Of a stretch of 64,000 nucleotides of DNA, positions 51,503 to 63,228 are shown piece by piece. The translations under genes were made by a program, and so were the position numbers. Each line of letters starts with the position of its first letter. Within the stretch, counting starts at the first letter, position 1. This stretch comes from a virus, in IMG/VR virus record IMGVR_UViG_3300037110_000087, positions 124,001 through 188,000 of that record. One strand, 5' to 3'. The notes under the pieces are model-generated. The model saw only the letters and a list, made by a program, of their open reading frames with translations. It searched no databases and was not told the DNA's origin.

Positions 51503-54500
51503 ATGAAAGAATACACGCAATGGCGATTGGATTTTCTGACTAATGTTCTGGCTGGTATCCCAGAAGAACTCAAAGACAGATTGAATGGCGAACAGAAAGC
51601 CAAGTATCATAATCGTGGTACCCTGCTCAAAGAGACTCCGGAGGGGTGGATTAAGTCCATTCTGGATTCTTGTCTTTGGTACTCCCACCTGTTCCCAGGT
51701 CTTAGGCAGTGTGTGGACGAAGACCAAAGAGAAAAATGGGGAAAGCTCAAGACAACCCTATTTGGCCTCTACAACCGATTCGAGGGTAACAAGCCCTACC
51801 AGGAGATTCTTGGGGTTGGTATTCGCGCCCTGGAGAACAATCGTTGGGCTAACGAATACCTGAGACCCGATCAGATCACCTGTGTGGATAGCACTCGAAA
51901 GAATCTATCCAGTCTTGGTATCGATTATGCCACGATTTACGAGGAGACCAAAGAGGACTACAACCAGCCACATGCCTTCAATTTCTTCCTTAATTCTGAG
52001 GTTTGGAACCAGGAACGTTCTGGAGGGCTGAAAGGCAACACCAACGTCAATCTCATGGATGCATGCACAGGCAGTGGTAAGACAAGAATGGGGCTTGTTG
52101 CGTCCTGCGGTCATCTTTGTTATTCGAACGAGGTCATTCCCTTCGCGGCTCAGCGGGTGGCTGTGTTCGTCAGGACCCGATCGCAGACAATGGCCTTCCT
52201 TAAGGAATCCAAACGAATGGACCTCAAAGTGGCCTGTCCTATCAGCATCTCTTTAGGTTGTCAGTGCCATGACTCTGTGAATAAAACCTTCCTAGATACC
52301 ATCTTTGCCTTATTTGGCGCTCTCCGAGATAGTTGCCAGGGAGGGATGAATTTATCCAAGAAAGAACTAAAACTACCTAAGATCTATCCGATGGAGTTAT
52401 ATAATAGTGTAGCAATCAGCCAGGAAACTTGTATCGGTCTATCGAACGCAGTGACCGCCTTCCATGACTACCTTCAGGATAGTCCTGATGTAATCTCTCT
52501 ACTCAACCGATGGAGCCGGGATAATAGAAACAGATGCCAAGAGGCTTGCTTCTTGGATCTGAAATCTTATGTTACCGCATCGGATCTGGATGCCGAGAAG
52601 GTTGATGCTTTCACCTATTTGATGAGTTCTAGGAAATGTGCTTCATGCCCGTCTAATATGAACTTCCTGCTCAAGTCGGGTATTAATCCCTATGAAGAGG
52701 CACGGCAATTCGAACAGGTTCCCAACAAATTCTTTTTCGATGAAGCACTGGACAAGAATGCTGACATCAACAAGGTGGCTCTGCTCTATCAGAATACCTT
52801 CGGTTGCTGCGGACGGACTGATTCAAAGAAGAATATGGAATCTGCTGATGTGGTGATCTTCACCTATAATTGGTTGATGGACCCAGATATCGCGATCCAT
52901 ACTGCAAAGAGTTTGCACAATCTCGGATCACTTAACTGGCAGATCTCCACTATCTGCGATGAGGCCCATTTCCTCTATGGGTTCAACCAGCGGTTCGACT
53001 TTAACTTCCCTATGACTATTAAGATCGCTGCCGAGATCTGGCATGCCAAGCTCCACTATCTTGACCAGAACCGGTTTGATGTCCCAGGGGTAGGAGTCAC
53101 CAGCGGACCAAATTGGGGTGAACTCCCACAGGAGTTCAAGCGCATGGATCTAGCGTTGAAGACTCTCAATAGCTTCCTTGAGAAGTTGTTCTTGATGGAC
53201 GAGCAGATCCCTACCCCATTGAGAGTATTTAGACTGGCTACCGGCCATGATTTTCCATGGTATCCCAAACAACTCTATAATCAGTTCAATCCAATGTTCG
53301 ATTTAGACATCCTGAGTAATCGCAATCAGATTGAGACAGTCTACAATACTCTTGGAGTCATGATCGAAGAATGGAATCGCATTATTGGTGTATGTGAGGC
53401 TCAGTATACCTCATGTGATGAAACAATGGATGCCCTGATGGATTCCAAGGAGGATGATGGAGATTCTGAGGATGAAGATGGAGAAGTTGGTAATCCCTGG
53501 GCTGCGCAGTTATTCAAGGAATGGAAGGCGAGTGGCTCCCAGTCAAAGGGCAAGTTCAAGAGAGCGTTTCATAAAGTGATTGATGCCTACAAGACCCTAT
53601 CGAATACTGCCCTATTCCTGCTCGAATGGACGCTGATCCTTAAGGAAACCGTCTATAGTATGAGTTCAGGGACTTTTGATGAGAGAATCCTCAGTGTCAG
53701 CATCGGGTCTGCCCAGTTTGATACAATCATTGGTAAGAACGTTCTTGAGGACACCATGAAGCCTCAGGATCCGATCGATCGGGCCAAAGTGGAAAAGTTG
53801 ATGCTCCCCTACTGCACCACTATTCAATCAGTGGGCTATGCGGAAACGGATAAGAGTGCGTGGCACAAGGCAACACCTACTGATTTTTTCCACTTCTTCG
53901 ACAGTCCTTACGCTTGGATGCGGAATGCCAAATGCAAACCAGCCTTTCAATCCCTGGCTGCTACCTTCAAGGTGAACAAGCCTTTCATTCAGACTGCACT
54001 CCGGCCTTATCCCTATATTACCTTCTTGACCGGCACACCTGCGGACAAGACCCTATGGCGGTCTAAGTCCGGATTCCGTTACTTTGCTAATTCGGACTAC
54101 CCGATTAAGCCCAATTCATTCGACTTTAAGATTGATAGCAGATTCGAACTGAAACAGGCCAACAAATCAGATATTCAGGATCGTGATGTGGCCATGGCAA
54201 TCCAGCACTACACAGCTGGCTCTAGCATGTCATTGGTCTGTTATCCCAGTAAGGCGACCATGAATCGAATCATGAAGTTCATGGGCAAGGGATACCTGGA
54301 TGAGGTCCTGATGGAGAAAGAGGGTGTTGAAATGGAGGATCTCCAGAATTACGCTGCCACTGAAGGTTCGATCCATGTGGTCTGCGGTGGACGGTTCGTT
54401 GAGGGAATTGAATGCACTGATGAGAATGGAAGTAGTCTCATCAAGCAGGTAATCATCGTCGGTGTCCCATTCAACCCACCCTCCGAGGAAAATAGACAAA

Positions 54501-54700
54501 TTGAAGCTCATTTCCAGAAGATCTACGGCTGGGACCAATGGGAATGCATGAAGATGTTGATGTATGCTCCGGTCTATCAGAAGGTTAGACAAGCTATGGG
54601 CCGGTGTGTTAGGAACCTGACCGATCGCGGTACCATTATCTTCCTCGATAAACGGTATGAAACGAGCAAGATGTTAAGACAAGCGTTAGGGTGTTTCTAG
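51503..54700 (+). CDS. DinG/XPD-like superfamily 2 helicase (1065 aa)
   Basis: This is a DNA helicase or translocase. Walker A is DACTGSGKT with Lys193; DEAH is CDEAHFL at Asp486-His489; motif V-VI appears as GRFVEGIECTD and QAMGRCVRNLTDRG near residues 970 and 1033. Between Walker A and DEAH, Cys residues near 348, 352, 384, 387 and 432-433 (RCQEACF, RKCASCP, FGCCGR) could bind a 4Fe-4S cluster as in XPD and DinG. It is larger than E. coli DinG (about 716 residues), because of an N-terminal 190-residue extension and a long insertion after DEAH. The acidic loop near residue 655 (DSEDEDGE) is probably flexible. Confidence 0.8.
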   Translation: MKEYTQWRLDFLTNVLAGIPEELKDRLNGEQKAKYHNRGTLLKETPEGWIKSILDSCLWYSHLFPGLRQCVDEDQREKWGKLKTTLFGLYNRFEGNKPYQEILGVGIRALENNRWANEYLRPDQITCVDSTRKNLSSLGIDYATIYEETKEDYNQPHAFNFFLNSEVWNQERSGGLKGNTNVNLMDACTGSGKTRMGLVASCGHLCYSNEVIPFAAQRVAVFVRTRSQTMAFLKESKRMDLKVACPISISLGCQCHDSVNKTFLDTIFALFGALRDSCQGGMNLSKKELKLPKIYPMELYNSVAISQETCIGLSNAVTAFHDYLQDSPDVISLLNRWSRDNRNRCQEACFLDLKSYVTASDLDAEKVDAFTYLMSSRKCASCPSNMNFLLKSGINPYEEARQFEQVPNKFFFDEALDKNADINKVALLYQNTFGCCGRTDSKKNMESADVVIFTYNWLMDPDIAIHTAKSLHNLGSLNWQISTICDEAHFLYGFNQRFDFNFPMTIKIAAEIWHAKLHYLDQNRFDVPGVGVTSGPNWGELPQEFKRMDLALKTLNSFLEKLFLMDEQIPTPLRVFRLATGHDFPWYPKQLYNQFNPMFDLDILSNRNQIETVYNTLGVMIEEWNRIIGVCEAQYTSCDETMDALMDSKEDDGDSEDEDGEVGNPWAAQLFKEWKASGSQSKGKFKRAFHKVIDAYKTLSNTALFLLEWTLILKETVYSMSSGTFDERILSVSIGSAQFDTIIGKNVLEDTMKPQDPIDRAKVEKLMLPYCTTIQSVGYAETDKSAWHKATPTDFFHFFDSPYAWMRNAKCKPAFQSLAATFKVNKPFIQTALRPYPYITFLTGTPADKTLWRSKSGFRYFANSDYPIKPNSFDFKIDSRFELKQANKSDIQDRDVAMAIQHYTAGSSMSLVCYPSKATMNRIMKFMGKGYLDEVLMEKEGVEMEDLQNYAATEGSIHVVCGGRFVEGIECTDENGSSLIKQVIIVGVPFNPPSEENRQIEAHFQKIYGWDQWECMKMLMYAPVYQKVRQAMGRCVRNLTDRGTIIFLDKRYETSKMLRQALGCF

Positions 54701-55978: not shown

Positions 55979-56215
55979 TTATCCCCCAGTCTTATGCCAT
56001 TTGCCATCAGCCTTCAGAGTGTATTCCTGGCCCTTGCCCGATCCTAGGCCGATGCCTTCGAAAGTGTGACAAGAGGAACAGGCACAGCCAGCGATGATCC
56101 CACCACTGGTTCTGATCCTGGCATCGTAGAACTTCCTAACGATCGGAGTCTCACAGAATTCACATTTGGTAGGGACCTCGCCTAACCAAGTCACTTCTTC
56201 CAGTTTGTTAGCCAT
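55979..56215 (-). CDS. Zinc-type small protein (78 aa)
   Basis: The ATG at 56215 has AAGGTGAAATCG before it and overlaps the upstream gene's stop. The protein has CEFC near residue 17 and CACSSCH near residue 44, a two-by-two Cys pattern for one zinc, then a Gly/Lys-rich tail. Unknown function; a nucleic-acid or protein-binding role is plausible. Confidence 0.65.
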   Translation of the reverse strand: MANKLEEVTWLGEVPTKCEFCETPIVRKFYDARIRTSGGIIAGCACSSCHTFEGIGLGSGKGQEYTLKADGKWHKTGG

Positions 56216-56885
56216 CGATTTCACCTTGGGTATTGGATTGGGTGACCCGCACCTTGGAGGCTTCGACTTCCTCGCGGCGAAGCGCACCACGGAGCATGTT
56301 GCCGATGTTCATCCGGATCATACCGGCGTTGAGGGTAGCATACTTCTTCTTGAGAGCCGAGACATCCAGATACTTCATGACCATCGGGACCTCCCAGATA
56401 TCCTCGATGGTGGCCGCGAACCGCAAGGCGGTAGCGATCTTGTCGCCGTTGTCCTGATGGCGAACCTTGTTGTCATCGCGGACGGTAGCGTTCTTCTGCC
56501 GGAAGGTGGAGAACCCCGCCAGGGTGTTGCGGGGTTCGGTCCGCTCAGCCTTCGGGGCCTTGGGCTGCTTCGGGGCCTTCTCCGCCTTGACCTTCTTGGT
56601 CGGAGCGGCATCATGAAGGCTAATGGGGAAAGCTTTCCCCGCTTCCACATCCTTGGTCTTGTCCGCTTCGATGGCCTCCACCATGGCTTCAGCGGTCATG
56701 GGCGCAGCAGGGGCCTGGGTCATGGGAGTGAAGCTCTTGACGAAGACCTGTTCGGTCATTTCACCTTCGGCAGCACCCTGGTAGCTGATGTAGGTCCACC
56801 GGCCCCGCTTCTCGACGGACTTGACGGTGATGGCCCTGGGGTCATTGCTCCTGGGGTCACGGAACTCGGAATTGACGGTGATCAT
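56208..56885 (-). CDS. Hypothetical early protein with Lys/Ala linker (225 aa)
   Basis: The ATG at 56885 follows AGGAGAAATCC. Residues 1-85 are a folded beta domain (SVEKRGRWTYISYQGAA), residues 100-150 a Lys/Ala/Pro-rich linker (KKVKAEKAPKQPKAPKAE), and residues 155-225 a helical C-terminal domain with Asn/Met-rich pattern that could bind nucleic acid. It lies under the P5 promoter. No family is recognised. Confidence 0.6.
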   Translation of the reverse strand: MITVNSEFRDPRSNDPRAITVKSVEKRGRWTYISYQGAAEGEMTEQVFVKSFTPMTQAPAAPMTAEAMVEAIEADKTKDVEAGKAFPISLHDAAPTKKVKAEKAPKQPKAPKAERTEPRNTLAGFSTFRQKNATVRDDNKVRHQDNGDKIATALRFAATIEDIWEVPMVMKYLDVSALKKKYATLNAGMIRMNIGNMLRGALRREEVEASKVRVTQSNTQGEIDG

Positions 56886-56925
56886 TGGATTTCTCCTGTC
56901 GAATGGCCCAATGGGCGATGTGAAA

Positions 56926-56954
56926 ATTCTAACATGATTGCTCATTTAGCGCAA
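56926..56954 (-). promoter_or_regulatory. Minus-strand promoter P5
   Basis: On the minus strand: TTGCGC (-35), 17 bp, TAGAAT (-10, with TGT before it). It is the weakest match of five similar promoters and drives the 225-residue gene. Confidence 0.5.
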
Positions 56955-56959
56955 TTATC

Positions 56960-57316
56960 CTAGCTGTGGTTGATGCGGCTCATCTGATATTCGATTTCGA
57001 ACTCATGCCATTGTTCGCGTTTCACCAGGGTTTCCTGCCTGACCTTGGCAGTGATTTCCGTGATGAACTTGCGGAGGTTGATGGTCCGGTGAGTAGGAGC
57101 AAGATGGGTGTAATTAGGAGAGTCCTGGCGAATCCAGCCCTCCACGCAGCCCTCTGCCTCACAAGGGAACCACTCTTCCCGGCCATTCCAGCCGCCCTGG
57201 CCATGGCACTCGCTGCACTCGCAGAAGCGGTGTTCCCGTTCGCCAGCCCAGGTGAGTTTCGGAGTGCGCTGGGTGGTCACAAGGCCGGTGGAGAAGGTCT
57301 GAGGGGTCATGGTCAT
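56960..57316 (-). CDS. Small zinc-knuckle protein (118 aa)
   Basis: ATG at 57316 with AGGAGAAATCCC upstream. Residues about 30-60 (CECSECHGQGGWNGREEW, CEAEGC) show a DnaJ-like four-Cys knuckle; the rest is a helical N- and C-terminal tail. It is the first gene after promoter P1. DnaJ-type knuckles bind zinc and unfolded protein or nucleic acid, but no J-domain is present. Confidence 0.6.
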   Translation of the reverse strand: MTMTPQTFSTGLVTTQRTPKLTWAGEREHRFCECSECHGQGGWNGREEWFPCEAEGCVEGWIRQDSPNYTHLAPTHRTINLRKFITEITAKVRQETLVKREQWHEFEIEYQMSRINHS

Positions 57317-57338
57317 GGGATTTCTCCTGTGTAATTCT

Positions 57339-57367
57339 ATTATACCACAGGGACAGATTTCACACAA
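57339..57367 (-). promoter_or_regulatory. Minus-strand promoter P1
   Basis: On the minus strand: TTGTGT (-35, 57362-57367), 17 bp of GAAATCTGTCCCTGTGG, TATAAT (-10, 57339-57344), extended by TG. The spacer is almost the same in P2 and P3, beyond what promoter function needs. Confidence 0.8.
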
Positions 57368-57388
57368 GTATTTCTCTCTATGAGGAGT

Positions 57389-57562
57389 TTATAGGTCCCT
57401 GAGGGTGGCTCGGGCTAAGGCAGCACAGGCCGGACCTTCCTTTCCCATTCTCCCAATCTTACGGAGAACACGCTGGAGGGCCAAGTTCTCGGTTTCCAGT
57501 CTATCCCTGGTTTCTATCAGGGCCAGGGCGACCGTCTTCCATTCCTTGCTGGTTCGTGCCAT
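57389..57562 (-). CDS. Small coiled-coil protein (57 aa)
   Basis: ATG at 57562 with TAGGAGCGAAC. The product is one long helix (ALIETRDRLETENLALQRVLRKI), a likely coiled coil, followed by a Gly/Pro turn and Ala/Arg helix. Unknown function. Confidence 0.6.
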   Translation of the reverse strand: MARTSKEWKTVALALIETRDRLETENLALQRVLRKIGRMGKEGPACAALARATLRDL

Positions 57563-57570
57563 GTTCGCTC

Positions 57571-57780
57571 CTAGAAGGGCAACCTGTCATCGTCGGGTTC
57601 CACGCGCTTCCTGGGTTTGAAGACTTCGCGGGTGAGCGACTTGATTGCGGAATGGGGGTTACCCAAGTGAGCGAATGGGAAATCATGTTCCGGGTGCCTT
57701 GCGATTCTACCGGCTTCGACGGTGAGACAGCGCAGGTTGAGGTTGAGGTAGAAATACTTGATGAAAAGATGATGGCGCAT
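57571..57780 (-). CDS. Small hypothetical protein (69 aa)
   Basis: I place the start at the ATG at 57780, after AGGGGATCTC, because an upstream in-frame ATG lacks a ribosome site. The product is basic, His/Arg-rich (MRHHLFIKYFYLNLN) and ends in an Arg/Asp-rich tail. No family is recognised. Confidence 0.5.
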   Translation of the reverse strand: MRHHLFIKYFYLNLNLRCLTVEAGRIARHPEHDFPFAHLGNPHSAIKSLTREVFKPRKRVEPDDDRLPF

Positions 57781-57788
57781 GAGATCCC

Positions 57789-57938
57789 CTACGCGGCTTG
57801 CAGCTTGTCGCAGTTGTCCAGGTCGCAGTTCCAGGAGTCGACCTCGTGCCAAGATGGACCCTGCTCCCGACCGGCGAAGCTGAGACAGGTCATGAGATCA
57901 CGGAAGGCGAGATAGAGGGAATTATAGAGTTCGTTCAT
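57789..57938 (-). CDS. Small hypothetical protein (49 aa)
   Basis: The ATG at 57938 overlaps the stop of the upstream 128-residue gene and has GAGGATGAA before it. The 49 residues have a helical start (MNELYNSLYLAFRDL) and a Cys/Asp-rich end with CDLDNCD. The overlap supports translation; the role is unknown. Confidence 0.5.
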   Translation of the reverse strand: MNELYNSLYLAFRDLMTCLSFAGREQGPSWHEVDSWNCDLDNCDKLQAA

Positions 57939-58321
57939 TTCATCCTCAGCAATTCGTTGGCACGGTTGACAGCGATCTTCCGATCGTCGCCCTTGTAATC
58001 GGGGATGGTTTCGAGAAGGGCCGACAGCGCGTCTTCCAGGTCTTCGATCCGCTTGGCATCGTCGACCACTTCGACCATAAGCTGCTCGAATTCCTCCCGG
58101 CTATCCGCAGCGGCATAGCAACCCTGCCGATGCCGATCGAAGGGAACCTTCTCAAGTTCCTTAATCGCGACCATCGCTGGTATATAGTCAGCCACCAGTC
58201 CGCTGTCACCGTGATCAAGGAAGACGAACACGTGGTTCGCACACACGAGGAGTCGATTTCGTGCCTGATACCTGAACTTGGTGCCATGGGGGAGATCGAA
58301 CAACCGATGGAGTTCGCTCAT
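57935..58321 (-). CDS. Hypothetical early protein (128 aa)
   Basis: ATG with TTAGGAGGATGAA. The N-terminal half has beta strands (RLLVCANHVFVFLD) and the C-terminal half a Glu/Leu-rich helix (REEFEQLMVEVVDDAKRIEDLEDALSALLE), a probable coiled coil. No known family. Confidence 0.65.
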   Translation of the reverse strand: MSELHRLFDLPHGTKFRYQARNRLLVCANHVFVFLDHGDSGLVADYIPAMVAIKELEKVPFDRHRQGCYAAADSREEFEQLMVEVVDDAKRIEDLEDALSALLETIPDYKGDDRKIAVNRANELLRMK

Positions 58322-58330
58322 TTCATCCTC

Positions 58331-58984
58331 CTAATTGGTCTGGCTGAGGTTCTTCATGGCACGGCGCACCTTGATCTGCCATGCCTGATTAGACTTCTCC
58401 CGGAAGAATGGCTCGAGGGTGCCCTGGGGGTCCTTGCCGACCAGCCCTTCGATTGCAGAGTCGTTCAGCTTGACGATTTCCTTGAACACCTTGGCCGGAT
58501 CGCGCTGGATGATACGAGCCAGCCAGAGTCCCTCTTCAATGACATAGTGGGACTCTACGTTAGTGGTGAGCCTGGGGAACATGCCAGCCAGAAGGACCTG
58601 ACGAGCCAAGAACGTCGATCCCAGCAGGAATTCAGAATCGAACACGCAGAGATCGAAGATGTAGAGGGTGTCCTTGATCTGCGGGGTCTTGGCATCAATC
58701 AACTCGCAGAGGAACACGGTCCACTTGCCAGGAGTGGCATACTTGACGAGCTTCCTAGTCCTGTCAGTCGGCTTCCACTGTTTGTGGACTTCACCATGCC
58801 GGTTCAGGTTGTGGATCTCGCCAGTCGGGGATACCCCGATAATGGAGTAAGTGCCGTTCATCTTGTATTGCCACAGCCAGCCCTTGCCGGTGTAGTGCGA
58901 GAACATCGCAGGAGCGACAGCGTATTCAGGCCGCGCTGGGAAGCGGAGGAAGGACGGTTTCCAGTCGGTGAAGGGCAGTGCCAT
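58331..58984 (-). CDS. Ligase-like nucleotidyltransferase domain (217 aa)
   Basis: This resembles a stand-alone adenylation domain of ATP-dependent DNA/RNA ligases. WQYKMNGTYSIIG holds the lysine motif (Lys41 of K-M-N-G, in place of the usual K-x-D-G). Then NRHGEVHKQW, LCELIDAK (a DGE-like position), TLYIFDLCVFD (motif IIIa) and IEGLVGKDPQ (motif IV, EG-x-V-x-K) follow in order, and KVRR near the end is a motif V candidate. No OB-fold domain follows, so it may act with a partner. It could instead be a capping-like or decoy enzyme. Strand joining is plausible, not certain. Confidence 0.65.
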   Translation of the reverse strand: MALPFTDWKPSFLRFPARPEYAVAPAMFSHYTGKGWLWQYKMNGTYSIIGVSPTGEIHNLNRHGEVHKQWKPTDRTRKLVKYATPGKWTVFLCELIDAKTPQIKDTLYIFDLCVFDSEFLLGSTFLARQVLLAGMFPRLTTNVESHYVIEEGLWLARIIQRDPAKVFKEIVKLNDSAIEGLVGKDPQGTLEPFFREKSNQAWQIKVRRAMKNLSQTN

Positions 58985-58992
58985 GGCATCCT

Positions 58993-59208
58993 CTACAGGT
59001 TGTTGTAGACGTTGACCGCACGGAAGAGGTCACAGCCCTGGTAGATGCTGGGGTCTTCCTGACCCGAACCAGCGACACCATGAGTGACCTTATATTCACT
59101 GGTCCCATTGAACCAGATTCGGCAAAGCATCCTTCCTCTGACTTCACTGGCGTAGAGGCTCCAGTGATTCTTCGCGTGTCGGATCACTTCGCTGACGCTG
59201 ATCTGCAT
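58993..59208 (-). CDS. Small hypothetical protein (71 aa)
   Basis: The ATG at 59208 follows GTAGGAGAAATCCCA. The product has a beta-rich middle (MLCRIWFNGTSEYKVTHGV) and no recognised motif. It is the first gene after promoter P2. Confidence 0.6.
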   Translation of the reverse strand: MQISVSEVIRHAKNHWSLYASEVRGRMLCRIWFNGTSEYKVTHGVAGSGQEDPSIYQGCDLFRAVNVYNNL

Positions 59209-59227
59209 TGGGATTTCTCCTACAACC

Positions 59228-59256
59228 AGTATACCATAGGGACGGATTTCACACAA
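59228..59256 (-). promoter_or_regulatory. Minus-strand promoter P2
   Basis: On the minus strand: TTGTGT (-35, 59251-59256), 17 bp of GAAATCCGTCCCTATGG, TATACT (-10, 59228-59233). Spacer differs from P1 by two bases. Confidence 0.75.
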
Positions 59257-59259
59257 TTC

Positions 59260-59586
59260 CTAGCTGCGAAGCCGCTCATCCCAGCAGCATTCACCAACCC
59301 AGCACCGAAGGTGGCCCAAGTTGGTCCGATGAGCAGTGACTATGCTGGTCTGCTTGTGGCAGATACCACACTCGACCTGGACGCGTTTGCGCGGCTTGGG
59401 AGTAGCCAGGGCCACACCGATCTCAGTCAGGAACCGGCCCAGGGCCACACGCTGTTCCTGGGTGCTGAGGGTGCCAGTCATGCCCTCTTCCTCAGCGCAC
59501 TGGATGGGTAGAGAGTCTAGGCGGTAGCAGCCTGATTCATCCAGTTCGAATCGGAACTGATCATTCTCGATCTTGATGGGTTTCAT
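59260..59586 (-). CDS. Small zinc-finger-type protein (108 aa)
   Basis: ATG with CGGAGGATCAG. The last 40 residues carry CGICHKQ and RCWVGECCW, a four-Cys plus His set for one zinc. The first 70 are an acidic helical region. No family is recognised; a nucleic-acid or protein contact is possible. Confidence 0.6.
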   Translation of the reverse strand: MKPIKIENDQFRFELDESGCYRLDSLPIQCAEEEGMTGTLSTQEQRVALGRFLTEIGVALATPKPRKRVQVECGICHKQTSIVTAHRTNLGHLRCWVGECCWDERLRS

Positions 59587-59607
59587 CTGATCCTCCGATA
59601 CCCCATT

Positions 59608-59623
59608 GGCCCCTTTCGGGGCC
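59608..59623 (-). terminator. GNRA-type hairpin between minus-strand genes
   Basis: On the minus strand GGCCCC-GAAA-GGGGCC forms a 6-bp stem with a stable tetraloop, between the 260-residue gene and the zinc-type gene. No T-run follows, so it may attenuate or protect RNA ends. Confidence 0.4.
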
Positions 59624-59675
59624 TTGGGCGGGTTCCTAACTTAGCAGAATTGCTCTATCTGCCTATTTCAGAACC

Positions 59676-60458
59676 CTATTTCTTCGCGATGGCCTTCTTG
59701 GGTTCTTCGGGAGCCAGGGAGATCCCATCGGCCTTGAGGATGCTGAACGCCAGGGCCAGCAGATCCTTGTCGTTGCCCTTCTCATCCTTCTCCGCGATGA
59801 GCATGGTCTTGATGGCCGGGGTGCACAGGATGTCGATGGCCTGTTCGATCTGTTCCTTGCTGGGCAGCTTGCAAGCCGCTTCGATGGCGTCATCGCTGGA
59901 GATCGCGATCTTGGCTTCGGCCTGATGCAGGATCACCGCGACACCCGCGAATTCGGGGATCTTGGCGATAACCGGGCTGATGGCTGCGCTCAGCTTGCTC
60001 ATCAGGACCTGATTGCCCATGATCTCCGGATTGAAGTAGAACTGGTCGGCGGTCTTGACGTTCTCGCCCAGCTTGGTGATCAGGTCGGCGCTCAGGGCCT
60101 TGAGGATATCCTGCTGATCGCTGGTGATCTCGATGCGCATATCCCGGCGCTTGATCTGGCAGTCAGCGCTGGAATGGTTGTCTTCGCCCTTGAAGTTGGC
60201 CGGACGGTTGTGGGTCAGGCTGGCGATGTTGGAGTAGGTGCTGACGATCTGCTGCTTGATGGACGCTTCCTTGGATTCCTTGAGTCCCTTGAGGGTGTTC
60301 ATCAGGGCATTGATGGAAGCCAGTTCGTCCAGACCCTCGATCTCGTAGCTGGCCTTCACGGCGGTCTTCGCCTTGGTGACGGGAGCGGCAACGATGGGAG
60401 CCGATCCAAAGGCATCGAAGGCGGGAGCGGTCTTGGTGGCGGTGGCGGTCTTGGCCAT
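59676..60458 (-). CDS. Hypothetical early protein (260 aa)
   Basis: The ATG at 60458 with TAGGAGAAATCCA is preferred. The first 40 residues are Ala/Thr/Lys-rich and flexible. Then a helical Lys/Glu pattern (KGLKESKEASIKQQIV), a Met-rich core and a Lys/Ala-rich end follow. No family is recognised. It is the largest gene of the P3 unit and may be a DNA- or host-interacting protein. Confidence 0.6.
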   Translation of the reverse strand: MAKTATATKTAPAFDAFGSAPIVAAPVTKAKTAVKASYEIEGLDELASINALMNTLKGLKESKEASIKQQIVSTYSNIASLTHNRPANFKGEDNHSSADCQIKRRDMRIEITSDQQDILKALSADLITKLGENVKTADQFYFNPEIMGNQVLMSKLSAAISPVIAKIPEFAGVAVILHQAEAKIAISSDDAIEAACKLPSKEQIEQAIDILCTPAIKTMLIAEKDEKGNDKDLLALAFSILKADGISLAPEEPKKAIAKK

Positions 60459-60491
60459 TGGATTTCTCCTAGCGGGATTGAACCCTAAAAA

Positions 60492-60520
60492 ATTATACCA
60501 CAGGGACAGATTTCGCACAA
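60492..60520 (-). promoter_or_regulatory. Minus-strand promoter P3
   Basis: On the minus strand: TTGTGC (-35, 60515-60520), 17 bp of GAAATCTGTCCCTGTGG (identical to P1), TATAAT (-10, 60492-60497). Confidence 0.8.
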
Positions 60521-60536
60521 GTATTTCCGTGAGGGT

Positions 60537-60701
60537 CTAGAAGTCCCGGCCCTCAACCCAGGTGGCGAACTGACGGGCATATCGGGCGGTCCGCTGTTCG
60601 GCCAGCTTCCGCTTCCGCTTGGTGGTCCAGGGACCGGCCTCCCGGAACGCCAGGAATACCTTCTTGCCCTTCTTCCGGATGGGCTTGGGGGTGTGTGCCA
60701 T
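60537..60701 (-). CDS. Small basic protein (54 aa)
   Basis: The ATG at 60701 has GGAGG at a five-base spacing and is preferred to an upstream in-frame TTG. The product is highly basic (KPIRKKGKKVFLAF, KRKRKLAEQRTARYARQ). It is a likely nucleic-acid binder. It is the first gene after promoter P4. Confidence 0.6.
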   Translation of the reverse strand: MAHTPKPIRKKGKKVFLAFREAGPWTTKRKRKLAEQRTARYARQFATWVEGRDF

Positions 60702-60727
60702 GGGGGCCTCCAGGGGTGGACTCAAAT

Positions 60728-60793
60728 CGGGATGGTGGTGTTTCAACCCAGTCTGGAGGGGATTACCCTCGTAGGACTATGACCACCATCCCG
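60728..60793 (-). promoter_or_regulatory. 12-bp inverted repeat in the P4 leader RNA
   Basis: A perfect 12-bp inverted repeat (60728-60739 and 60782-60793, CGGGATGGTGGT with its complement) encloses 42 bases that hold a smaller GAGGG...CCCTC stem. In the minus-strand leader RNA it should fold. A mini-ORF of eight codons (MVVIVLRG) with its own GGAGAAATCC site lies in it, which suggests attenuation or leader-peptide control. Confidence 0.5.
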
Positions 60794-60810
60794 GATTTCT
60801 CCATACCTAA

Positions 60811-60839
60811 ATTATAACATATCTTAGGATTTCACACAA
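60811..60839 (-). promoter_or_regulatory. Minus-strand promoter P4
   Basis: On the minus strand: TTGTGT (-35, 60834-60839), GAAATC then a divergent 11 bp, TATAAT (-10, 60811-60816). It shares the -35 and GAAATC with P1-P3 but not the rest of the spacer. Confidence 0.7.
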
Positions 60840-60905
60840 TAGGTAAATTTTGCCTATTACACAGGGGTCCCGGAACCCACCTTCCAGATATGGCTCCGGA
60901 CGGGT

Positions 60906-61716: not shown

Positions 61717-63228
61717 TTATAAGCTTGCAGATAATTCTACCTTGAGTCGTGCTGTTTCTCTCAGATGACATGGTAGACATAGAGTACGCAGGTTATCCAA
61801 CATTCCCTTGATCAACAGAGAACCACCTAAAGCCTGACTGAATCCATGATCGCAATCCCAGAAGGTTCGTCTGTGTTGCCATTTGCAAAGAGGAATACCT
61901 TGCTCTTCAAACACCTTTTGGGCAATTAGCTCCTTTTGCTTGCCCTGAGTGCCCCTAGTTGCTGCTTTGACAAGCTTGAAAAATTTGGAACAATTAAGTC
62001 CACAGCTCTTGCAGACTCCTCTGTCTCTCTTGTATACGGCCTTTCTGGCAAAACTGGGGAACATAGCAATCTTGTAGTCTGTCTCACATTCTTTGGAACA
62101 ATAAACACTTCTGCGCTTCACTGTTATTGTCACTTTACATGCTTTGCAAATTTTGTTCTCGGATTTGGGTTCGCAAGCCTTGCAATACCATCTGCGATGA
62201 TTCCATATGACCCTTCCTAACACAGTAAACTGGTGTCCATTTTTGCATTCGGTAAGAAACTCTGATTGGCCGTCTTTCCATGTTCCCGATATAAGCTTTC
62301 CACCACAAGAGTTAATGTGCAATTCCAATTTGTCACGGTTGCTTGTAGTTCTGCTGGCTACCTGCATACCACAATCAAAACACCATCGGCCTTTCTTCAG
62401 ATTGGCATAGGTACCGTTCCATTTATGGCCTTGGCCACACTGGAATGTGTATTTCCCATGATGTCCGAGATAAACACTGGATAGACATTCACCACCATAT
62501 CGTCTTGCTAGTTCTTTGATCTCTATCATTTTGTCTTTGAATGTAGCACTAGCGAATTCTTCCACATTGTTGATCCTAAATGAGTCAGGGAGCAAGTTGT
62601 TGATGAACTTTGGCAAATCGTTTATTTTGATGTTGTAAGGGATTACCAAGAGTTTCACATTATGATTGTCGCATTGTTTCTGTTTAAGTTCATCATAGTT
62701 TGGATTCTCCCCCAGCCAAGTCGGTTTGTAATGTTGTTCTCCATTATGTTCGAAGGCTAATTTAAGTTCATCATTGAAACCATCAAGTTCTAATGAGTTG
62801 CCCTTCGGAGAAACAAGCCAATCGGGTCTGATTTTCGAAAAAGACTTTCCGGTGATATGTTCCAACACTGACCTACAAAGTTCTTCTCGCACATAATACA
62901 TCTTTGAGCATACAGTGCACCAACTATGGCCGGATACAACATTTGTATACGACGATTTCCATTGATGACCCAGATGACATTCCCAATCAAGAATGCTTTT
63001 TTCATTTTCGTAGTCTATGGATAAGCATTTGCCATTCTTTTGTTTCGCGAATGCTTGAGCGTTGGCCAAACTTTCTGTTTTTCGTATCCCCTTGCGCTCC
63101 TCTTTGCGCTTCGCAACAAGGTCCTGCCAATCCTTTTCTCTGAAATTCCTTCCGCAGTCCAAACATTTGAGTCTATGAACACCATTTCCAATTGCTCTCG
63201 TGCTCTTACAATCAGGACATTCTTCCAT
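61717..63228 (-). CDS. Homing-endonuclease-like protein with two nuclease modules
   Basis: The N-terminus (residues 1-35) is a zinc ribbon (CPDC ... CLDCGRNF). Then repeated CxLGHxW...CTVC treble-clef units flank a restriction-endonuclease-type core near residues 146-205: LELDGFNDELKLAFEHNGEQHY and LLVIPYNI, similar to EDxHD/Vsr-like homing enzymes. Residues about 430-490 add an HNH motif: WDCDHGFSQALGG ... NLRTLCLPCH with a Cys-rich CKSCGLNC before it. Such genes are mobile and cut phage DNA lacking them. It runs against the flanking plus-strand genes and lies alone between them. Confidence 0.75.
   Translation of the reverse strand: MEECPDCKSTRAIGNGVHRLKCLDCGRNFREKDWQDLVAKRKEERKGIRKTESLANAQAFAKQKNGKCLSIDYENEKSILDWECHLGHQWKSSYTNVVSGHSWCTVCSKMYYVREELCRSVLEHITGKSFSKIRPDWLVSPKGNSLELDGFNDELKLAFEHNGEQHYKPTWLGENPNYDELKQKQCDNHNVKLLVIPYNIKINDLPKFINNLLPDSFRINNVEEFASATFKDKMIEIKELARRYGGECLSSVYLGHHGKYTFQCGQGHKWNGTYANLKKGRWCFDCGMQVASRTTSNRDKLELHINSCGGKLISGTWKDGQSEFLTECKNGHQFTVLGRVIWNHRRWYCKACEPKSENKICKACKVTITVKRRSVYCSKECETDYKIAMFPSFARKAVYKRDRGVCKSCGLNCSKFFKLVKAATRGTQGKQKELIAQKVFEEQGIPLCKWQHRRTFWDCDHGFSQALGGSLLIKGMLDNLRTLCLPCHLRETARLKVELSASL

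Follow-up and report, generated by a model that had tools for sequence, protein, structure and literature searches.

A class of probable extended -10 promoters with a conserved 12-bp box at the -35 position in a 307-kb virus record

Seven intergenic sites in the virus record IMGVR_UViG_3300037110_000087 (307,124 bases; a metagenomic contig that may be incomplete) share a promoter architecture, here termed class A, in which a host-type extended -10 element is preceded by a 12-bp box, TTGTGYGAAATC, at the place of the -35 element. Four of them (P1 to P4) lie in the window, the 64,000-base stretch analysed here (bases 124001-188000 of the record), and three (452+, 87322+ and 294127-) lie outside it. 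The reading favoured here, with a probability of about 0.45, is that these are extended -10 promoters of the host polymerase in which a phage box serves for the -35 and which would be activated by a phage-coded protein, in the manner of the middle promoters of phage T4. Window positions are used for P1 to P5, and whole-record (G000) positions for the three further class A sites and all others outside the window. The plus strand of the window carries terminase, portal, head protease and tail genes, and a minus-strand block at about 56-61 kb holds small genes without known function. The terminase is nearest to those of jumbo phages such as PaBG, the Erwinia SNUABM phages, HRDY3 and Lu11 (identity 32% or less), and for this reason the host is probably a proteobacterium.

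Seven sites with a two-block architecture

The sites in the window, including one (P5) that falls outside the class, are as follows.

57339..57367, minus strand: P1, class A promoter; box TTGTGTGAAATC at 57356-57367, extended -10 TGTGG at 57345-57349, -10 TATAAT at 57339-57344
59228..59256, minus strand: P2, class A promoter; box TTGTGTGAAATC at 59245-59256, extended -10 TATGG, -10 TATACT
60492..60520, minus strand: P3, class A promoter; box TTGTGCGAAATC at 60509-60520, extended -10 TGTGG, -10 TATAAT
60811..60839, minus strand: P4, class A promoter; box TTGTGTGAAATC at 60828-60839, unrelated mid-spacer, extended -10 TATGT, -10 TATAAT
56926..56954, minus strand: P5, sigma70-like site outside class A; TTGCGC-17-TAGAAT with a TG extended -10 and no GAAATC

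The initial annotation described P1 to P5 as five near-identical promoters, which holds for P1, P2 and P3, each exactly in place with a 17-bp spacer, applies to P4 in part and does not extend to P5. A search for the 29-mer with at most three mismatches returned these three sites in the window and none in 100 shuffles, a control that speaks to chance and not to function. P4, said to keep only the -35 and GAAATC, does retain the first 12 bases and also has TATAAT and the extended -10 TATGT; P5, said to share only the spacing, has the 17-bp spacer and also the AGGAGAAATCC leader common to the others. A generic TTGACA/TATAAT scanner reports none of the five, as their -35 elements are too poor.

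With the mid-spacer left free, the pattern returned all seven class A sites from the whole record and none in a reversed-pattern control; an eighth match, 259375+, has no -10. The genome-wide search proposed in the initial annotation thereby added the three sites beyond the window, and as 452+ and 87322+ are on the plus strand, the minus-strand location of P1 to P4 is incidental. Within the window the plus-strand structural genes do lack the pattern, as had been stated. All seven sites are intergenic, in the leaders of non-structural genes, and none is within a gene; most lie a few bases past a stop codon (3-21 bases past that of the preceding gene for P1 to P3 and P5), with a ribosome site and start codon downstream. 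A pattern spread through the genome without promoters, named beforehand as grounds for rejection, is thus not what was found, and the proposal that these are promoters of a co-regulated set stands: class A as the promoters of a regulon is well supported. Promoter activity and its timing, together with a binding protein and its sign as an activator, are inferred. It is very improbable that the sites are chance repeats or pieces of a mobile repeat; P1 to P3 are nearly identical over 29-36 bases, as copies of a repeat might be, but shuffles and controls gave zero, every site is intergenic and correctly spaced ahead of a start codon, and the likeness ends at the -10 to return only at the ribosome site.

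Conservation within class A is uneven. By mean pairwise identity across all seven, the best-kept parts are GAAATC (0.95), the -35 hexamer (0.92), the -10 (0.90) and the five-base TRTGG block in front of it (0.85); the six-base mid-spacer reaches only 0.44 and the 8 bp upstream 0.31. P1 and P3 are near-twins, almost identical across 36 bases, and without them mid-spacer identity drops to 0.33, near chance, while GAAATC holds at 0.93, so that the conserved spacer of the initial annotation resolves into two blocks, GAAATC and TRTGG. Together with TTGTGY, GAAATC makes up the 12-bp box. This spans -35 to -24, with its centre at about -29.5, is kept where the flanks have diverged and is unchanged in P4 and 294127- despite their altered mid-spacer. 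At the other end, all seven sites match TATAAT in at least five of six positions and carry TRTGG or TATGT before it. The extended -10 consensus is TGTG, read by sigma region 3.0 (review, PMC7057261), and TRTGG is an ordinary extended -10, read by sigma itself. The class A -35, TTGTGY, agrees with TTGACA at three of six positions and falls short of a classical -35. The earlier suggestion of an operator-like spacer thus loses TRTGG, and the part needing explanation is GAAATC with a uniform non-consensus -35, for which a putative bound regulator is the leading, though unproven, reading.

A second promoter class and the polymerase in use

A second class of promoters (class B) has a perfect TTGACA, a spacer of 17-18 bp and a TG-extended -10, with 16 matches in the whole record, a few of them probably not promoters, against none in controls. 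About 180 kb of the record was scanned for promoters, the whole record was covered by pattern search, about 130 kb of it in this way only, and genes outside the window were called by a simple script. As class B was collected by TTGACA, its uniformity is by construction, and the unbiased comparison is the one blind to the -35: of the 30 extended -10 sites collected from intergenic leaders, eight have TTGACA, seven have TTGTGY and 15 have no shared form, and each TTGTGY is followed by GAAATC or GGAATC. The class A -35 is uniformly different, not decayed or drifted, since the same phage has about 15 promoters with perfect TTGACA. In both classes the start codon is commonly preceded by AGGAGAAATCC or a variant of it. 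At one locus the classes occur together: 294127- is 75 bp upstream of a promoter of class B, and both would drive a helicase gene.

An alternative explanation is that class A sites are plain strong promoters of the host type, tuned within this lineage and lacking a dedicated regulator, where TRTGG spares the -35 and GAAATC either suits the host polymerase or was spread by copying of promoter cassettes. This is on the unlikely side, yet several observations speak for it. GAAATC-like words (at least five of six positions, either strand) occur in seven of 15 class B spacers, where 1.1 would be expected (0 of 3000 shuffles). They may reflect a preference of this phage's promoters in general, or a shared or repressor operator; in fixed register, the top word of class B spacers is GAGAA(T/A), with GAAATC about 43rd of 4096. 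The related jumbo phages G004, G005, G024 and G025 have lineage-specific repeated spacer or leader sequences of their own around TTGACA promoters (e.g., TGCCRTGTTATAAT in G024), and extra conservation without a known regulator is therefore common in this phage group. The near-identity of P1 and P3 points the same way, T4 early promoters likewise have a consensus beyond the hexamers (PMC2988021), and the zinc-binding domain of beta', reported to touch the spacer of promoters with a weak -35 contact, is a possible spacer reader (PMC11598898). Tuning does not account, however, for the split between seven sites with the one non-consensus -35 and others with TTGACA, with no intermediates, or for the survival of the 12-mer in P4 and 294127- alongside a changed mid-spacer.

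The box could instead be the operator of a phage repressor that covers the -35 region, serving for shut-off or for silence in an already infected cell, with the class B words as weaker copies. The words do occur in both classes and both orientations, and at the candidate promoter 259388- the -35 is overlain by GTGTGAAATC in reverse orientation. Two class A sites also have a near-palindrome, AATRGGYAARATTTRCCTATT, set against the box:

60838..60858, minus strand: 21-bp near-palindrome AATAGGCAAAATTTACCTATT abutting the P4 box; 9 of 10 pairs, with 3 of 200 shuffles as good
G000 294126-294146, minus strand: the copy at 294127-, recognised by its likeness to the P4 copy

These are its two full matches in the genome, and like the reversed word at 259388- they favour an operator. 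It is, however, the one palindrome shared among class A sites and is present at two of the seven only, the 12-mer itself is not palindromic, and its position and orientation to the -10 are fixed in all seven, a constraint that a contact tied to the polymerase would explain better than free binding to an operator. A repressor operator is unlikely.

The host sigma70 polymerase is likely the enzyme used at these promoters, as neither a beta' nor a sigma gene is detectable. A search of the record for RNA polymerase beta' (RNA_pol_Rpb1_2) gave no match and its controls worked, single-subunit polymerases not being searched for; a search for sigma70 region 2 (Sigma70_r2) gave none either, again with working controls, although distant sigma relatives could escape it. 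The sigma-like protein of PaBG was recognised by profile-profile search only (PMC7412058), so that a divergent sigma in this record is possible. The departure of the class A -35 from the housekeeping consensus might suggest promoters for an alternative host sigma factor, but this can hardly be so, as a TG-extended TATAAT with a 17-bp spacing is the mark of housekeeping promoters and the 29-bp pattern, the stricter one, has no exact copy in 84,980 bacterial and archaeal genomes. Known alternative sigma factors use other -10 elements. A candidate polymerase-binding factor is encoded behind a class B promoter, just upstream of the class A site 87322+:

G000 86787-87308, plus strand: 173-aa Gre-like protein; weak match to the GreA/GreB C-terminus (Pfam 1e-4, below the cut-off; NCBIfam greA 0.002), with an N-terminus predicted as two helices (model of low confidence, without a significant fold match)

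Comparison with T4 middle promoters and other systems

Under the favoured reading, housekeeping-sigma host polymerase would use class A with sigma reading TATAAT as the -10 and TRTGG as its extension; the usual -35 contact would be absent and the phage-specific box would take its place. The strong TTGACA promoters of class B would make the putative box-binding protein, which would bind the box together with sigma or the core polymerase and so stand in for the contact of sigma region 4 to the -35. Class A genes would thereby be turned on as a second wave, as by MotA/AsiA at T4 middle promoters; the layout is as compatible with a middle-type class as with the early regulon proposed in the initial annotation.

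In T4 middle promoters, a box centred at -30 replaces the -35 and is combined with a good -10, with TGn in half of the promoters (PMC2988021). Class A has the same layout, with a good -10 and the 12-mer centred at -29.5; a host sigma70 -10 that often has TGn, a phage box near -30 and a separate early class with consensus TTGACA are common to both systems. T4 has no phage polymerase, and here the searches for beta' and sigma70 region 2 detected none. In contrast, the T4 box is (a/t)(a/t)TGCTT(t/c)a and tolerates variation, whereas the box here lacks the central CTT and is near-invariant, and T4 has nearly 60 sites compared with seven. As the box sequence differs and MotA is undetected, class A is not placed in the T4 middle family; on present evidence it would work like a T4 middle promoter but outside that family.

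Several points weigh against this reading. An extended -10 promoter can be active even if it lacks a -35, so that an activator is not strictly needed, and GAAATC-like words, also present in class B spacers, are not exclusive to class A. No DNA-binding protein could be named, and the MotA-type domain PF09114 has no match in the record, a weak negative as the control genomes cannot give a signal. A class A site is present in none of 29 related jumbo-phage records, and no close relative was found: the terminase alignment gives distant kin only (34% identity or less), and protein searches of viral contigs with the P3 gene, the terminase alone, the helicase and the P5 gene returned no relatives. 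The only match to the pattern among viral contigs (L009) is inside an apparent helicase gene, is followed by neither leader nor start, and was judged chance; a literature search for the box sequence gave no relevant phage paper among those listed. An unlikely variant is sigma appropriation by a system with no sequence relation to MotA/AsiA in a jumbo phage lacking a detectable RNA polymerase. A phage protein would read TTGTGYGAAATC in place of the -35 and steer the host enzyme to the genes of a second wave, aided by polymerase-binding factors such as the Gre-like protein encoded behind a class B promoter.

Other known promoters resemble one class or the other. T4 early promoters are like class B in joining a host-polymerase -35, TGn and -10 with further conserved bases, and differ from class A, which has no consensus -35. 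Ordinary extended -10 sigma70 promoters (TGn or TRTGn) share the TRTGG-TATAAT arrangement and can make up for a poor -35 but do not have a conserved 12-bp box. For Lu11, a jumbo phage with a related terminase, the depositors annotated early promoters (TTGACA N15-17 TATAAT) and a putative 16-bp middle/late class, although the class A pattern was not found in its genome. An apparent likeness of P1 and its leader to the lac promoter region is probably coincidence.

Leaders, neighbouring genes and implications

The leaders and open reading frames (ORFs) behind the five sites, all on the minus strand, are as follows.

57318..57328, minus strand: AGGAGAAATCC leader (ribosome site) of P1
59211..59221, minus strand: AGGAGAAATCC leader of P2
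60460..60470, minus strand: AGGAGAAATCC leader of P3
60793..60803, minus strand: TGGAGAAATCC in the P4 leader
56887..56897, minus strand: AGGAGAAATCC leader of P5
56960..57316, minus strand: 118-aa ORF behind P1; Cys-rich, no family
58993..59208, minus strand: 71-aa ORF behind P2; no family
59676..60458, minus strand: 260-aa ORF behind P3; no family, no relative found
60537..60701, minus strand: 54-aa basic ORF behind P4, after a leader hairpin
56208..56885, minus strand: 225-aa ORF behind P5; phrog_8941, function not known

Early-gene leaders can have GGA-N(2-5)-TCC directly ahead of the start codon, mostly as AGGA[GAAA]TCC, with loops that vary (GAGA, GAAC, GCA) and arms that are kept; further examples are at G000 218481-, 273779+ and 293986-. 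TCC is present in 22 of 89 early Shine-Dalgarno spacers against 3.9 expected (maximum 11 in 2000 shuffles), one such leader occurs among 50 late genes, and the exact leader word was not found in 10 related records. The element is possibly a GNRA mini-hairpin or a translational operator at the ribosome site. The idea of one protein binding both the spacer GAAATC and the leader GAAATCC was dropped, as the distance from -10 to leader ranges over 7-29 bases with no common phase. In the P4 leader (60690-60804, minus strand), a possible leaderless 13-codon ORF overlaps a 12-bp hairpin ahead of the 54-aa ORF (fold z -1.8), and Rfam gave no match over the window or this leader. At G000 86752+, 184839-, 259388- and 294127- an ATG stands exactly six bases past the -10, as expected for leaderless messages.

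Three neighbouring or distant genes were also recognised, and a DNA match to a Vibrio phage was set aside as low-complexity Lys/Thr/Ala codons.

61717-63228 of the window, minus strand: 503-aa HNH/homing-type endonuclease, beside the class A cluster
51503-54700 of the window, plus strand: 1065-aa protein with a C-terminus like Rad3-like helicases of Sulfolobus viruses
G000 211052-211510, minus strand: homologue of Acb1 (anti-CBASS), E 9e-14

The timing of genes in jumbo phages without their own RNA polymerase has been little studied. The two classes described here are alike in -10, spacer length and leader and differ mainly at the -35 region, a contrast that makes the proposal testable with a handful of synthetic promoters. 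If a phage protein does bind the box, class A would be a candidate second case, beyond the T4 group, in which a box takes over from the -35; if none does, the box would be a record of lineage-specific promoter tuning.

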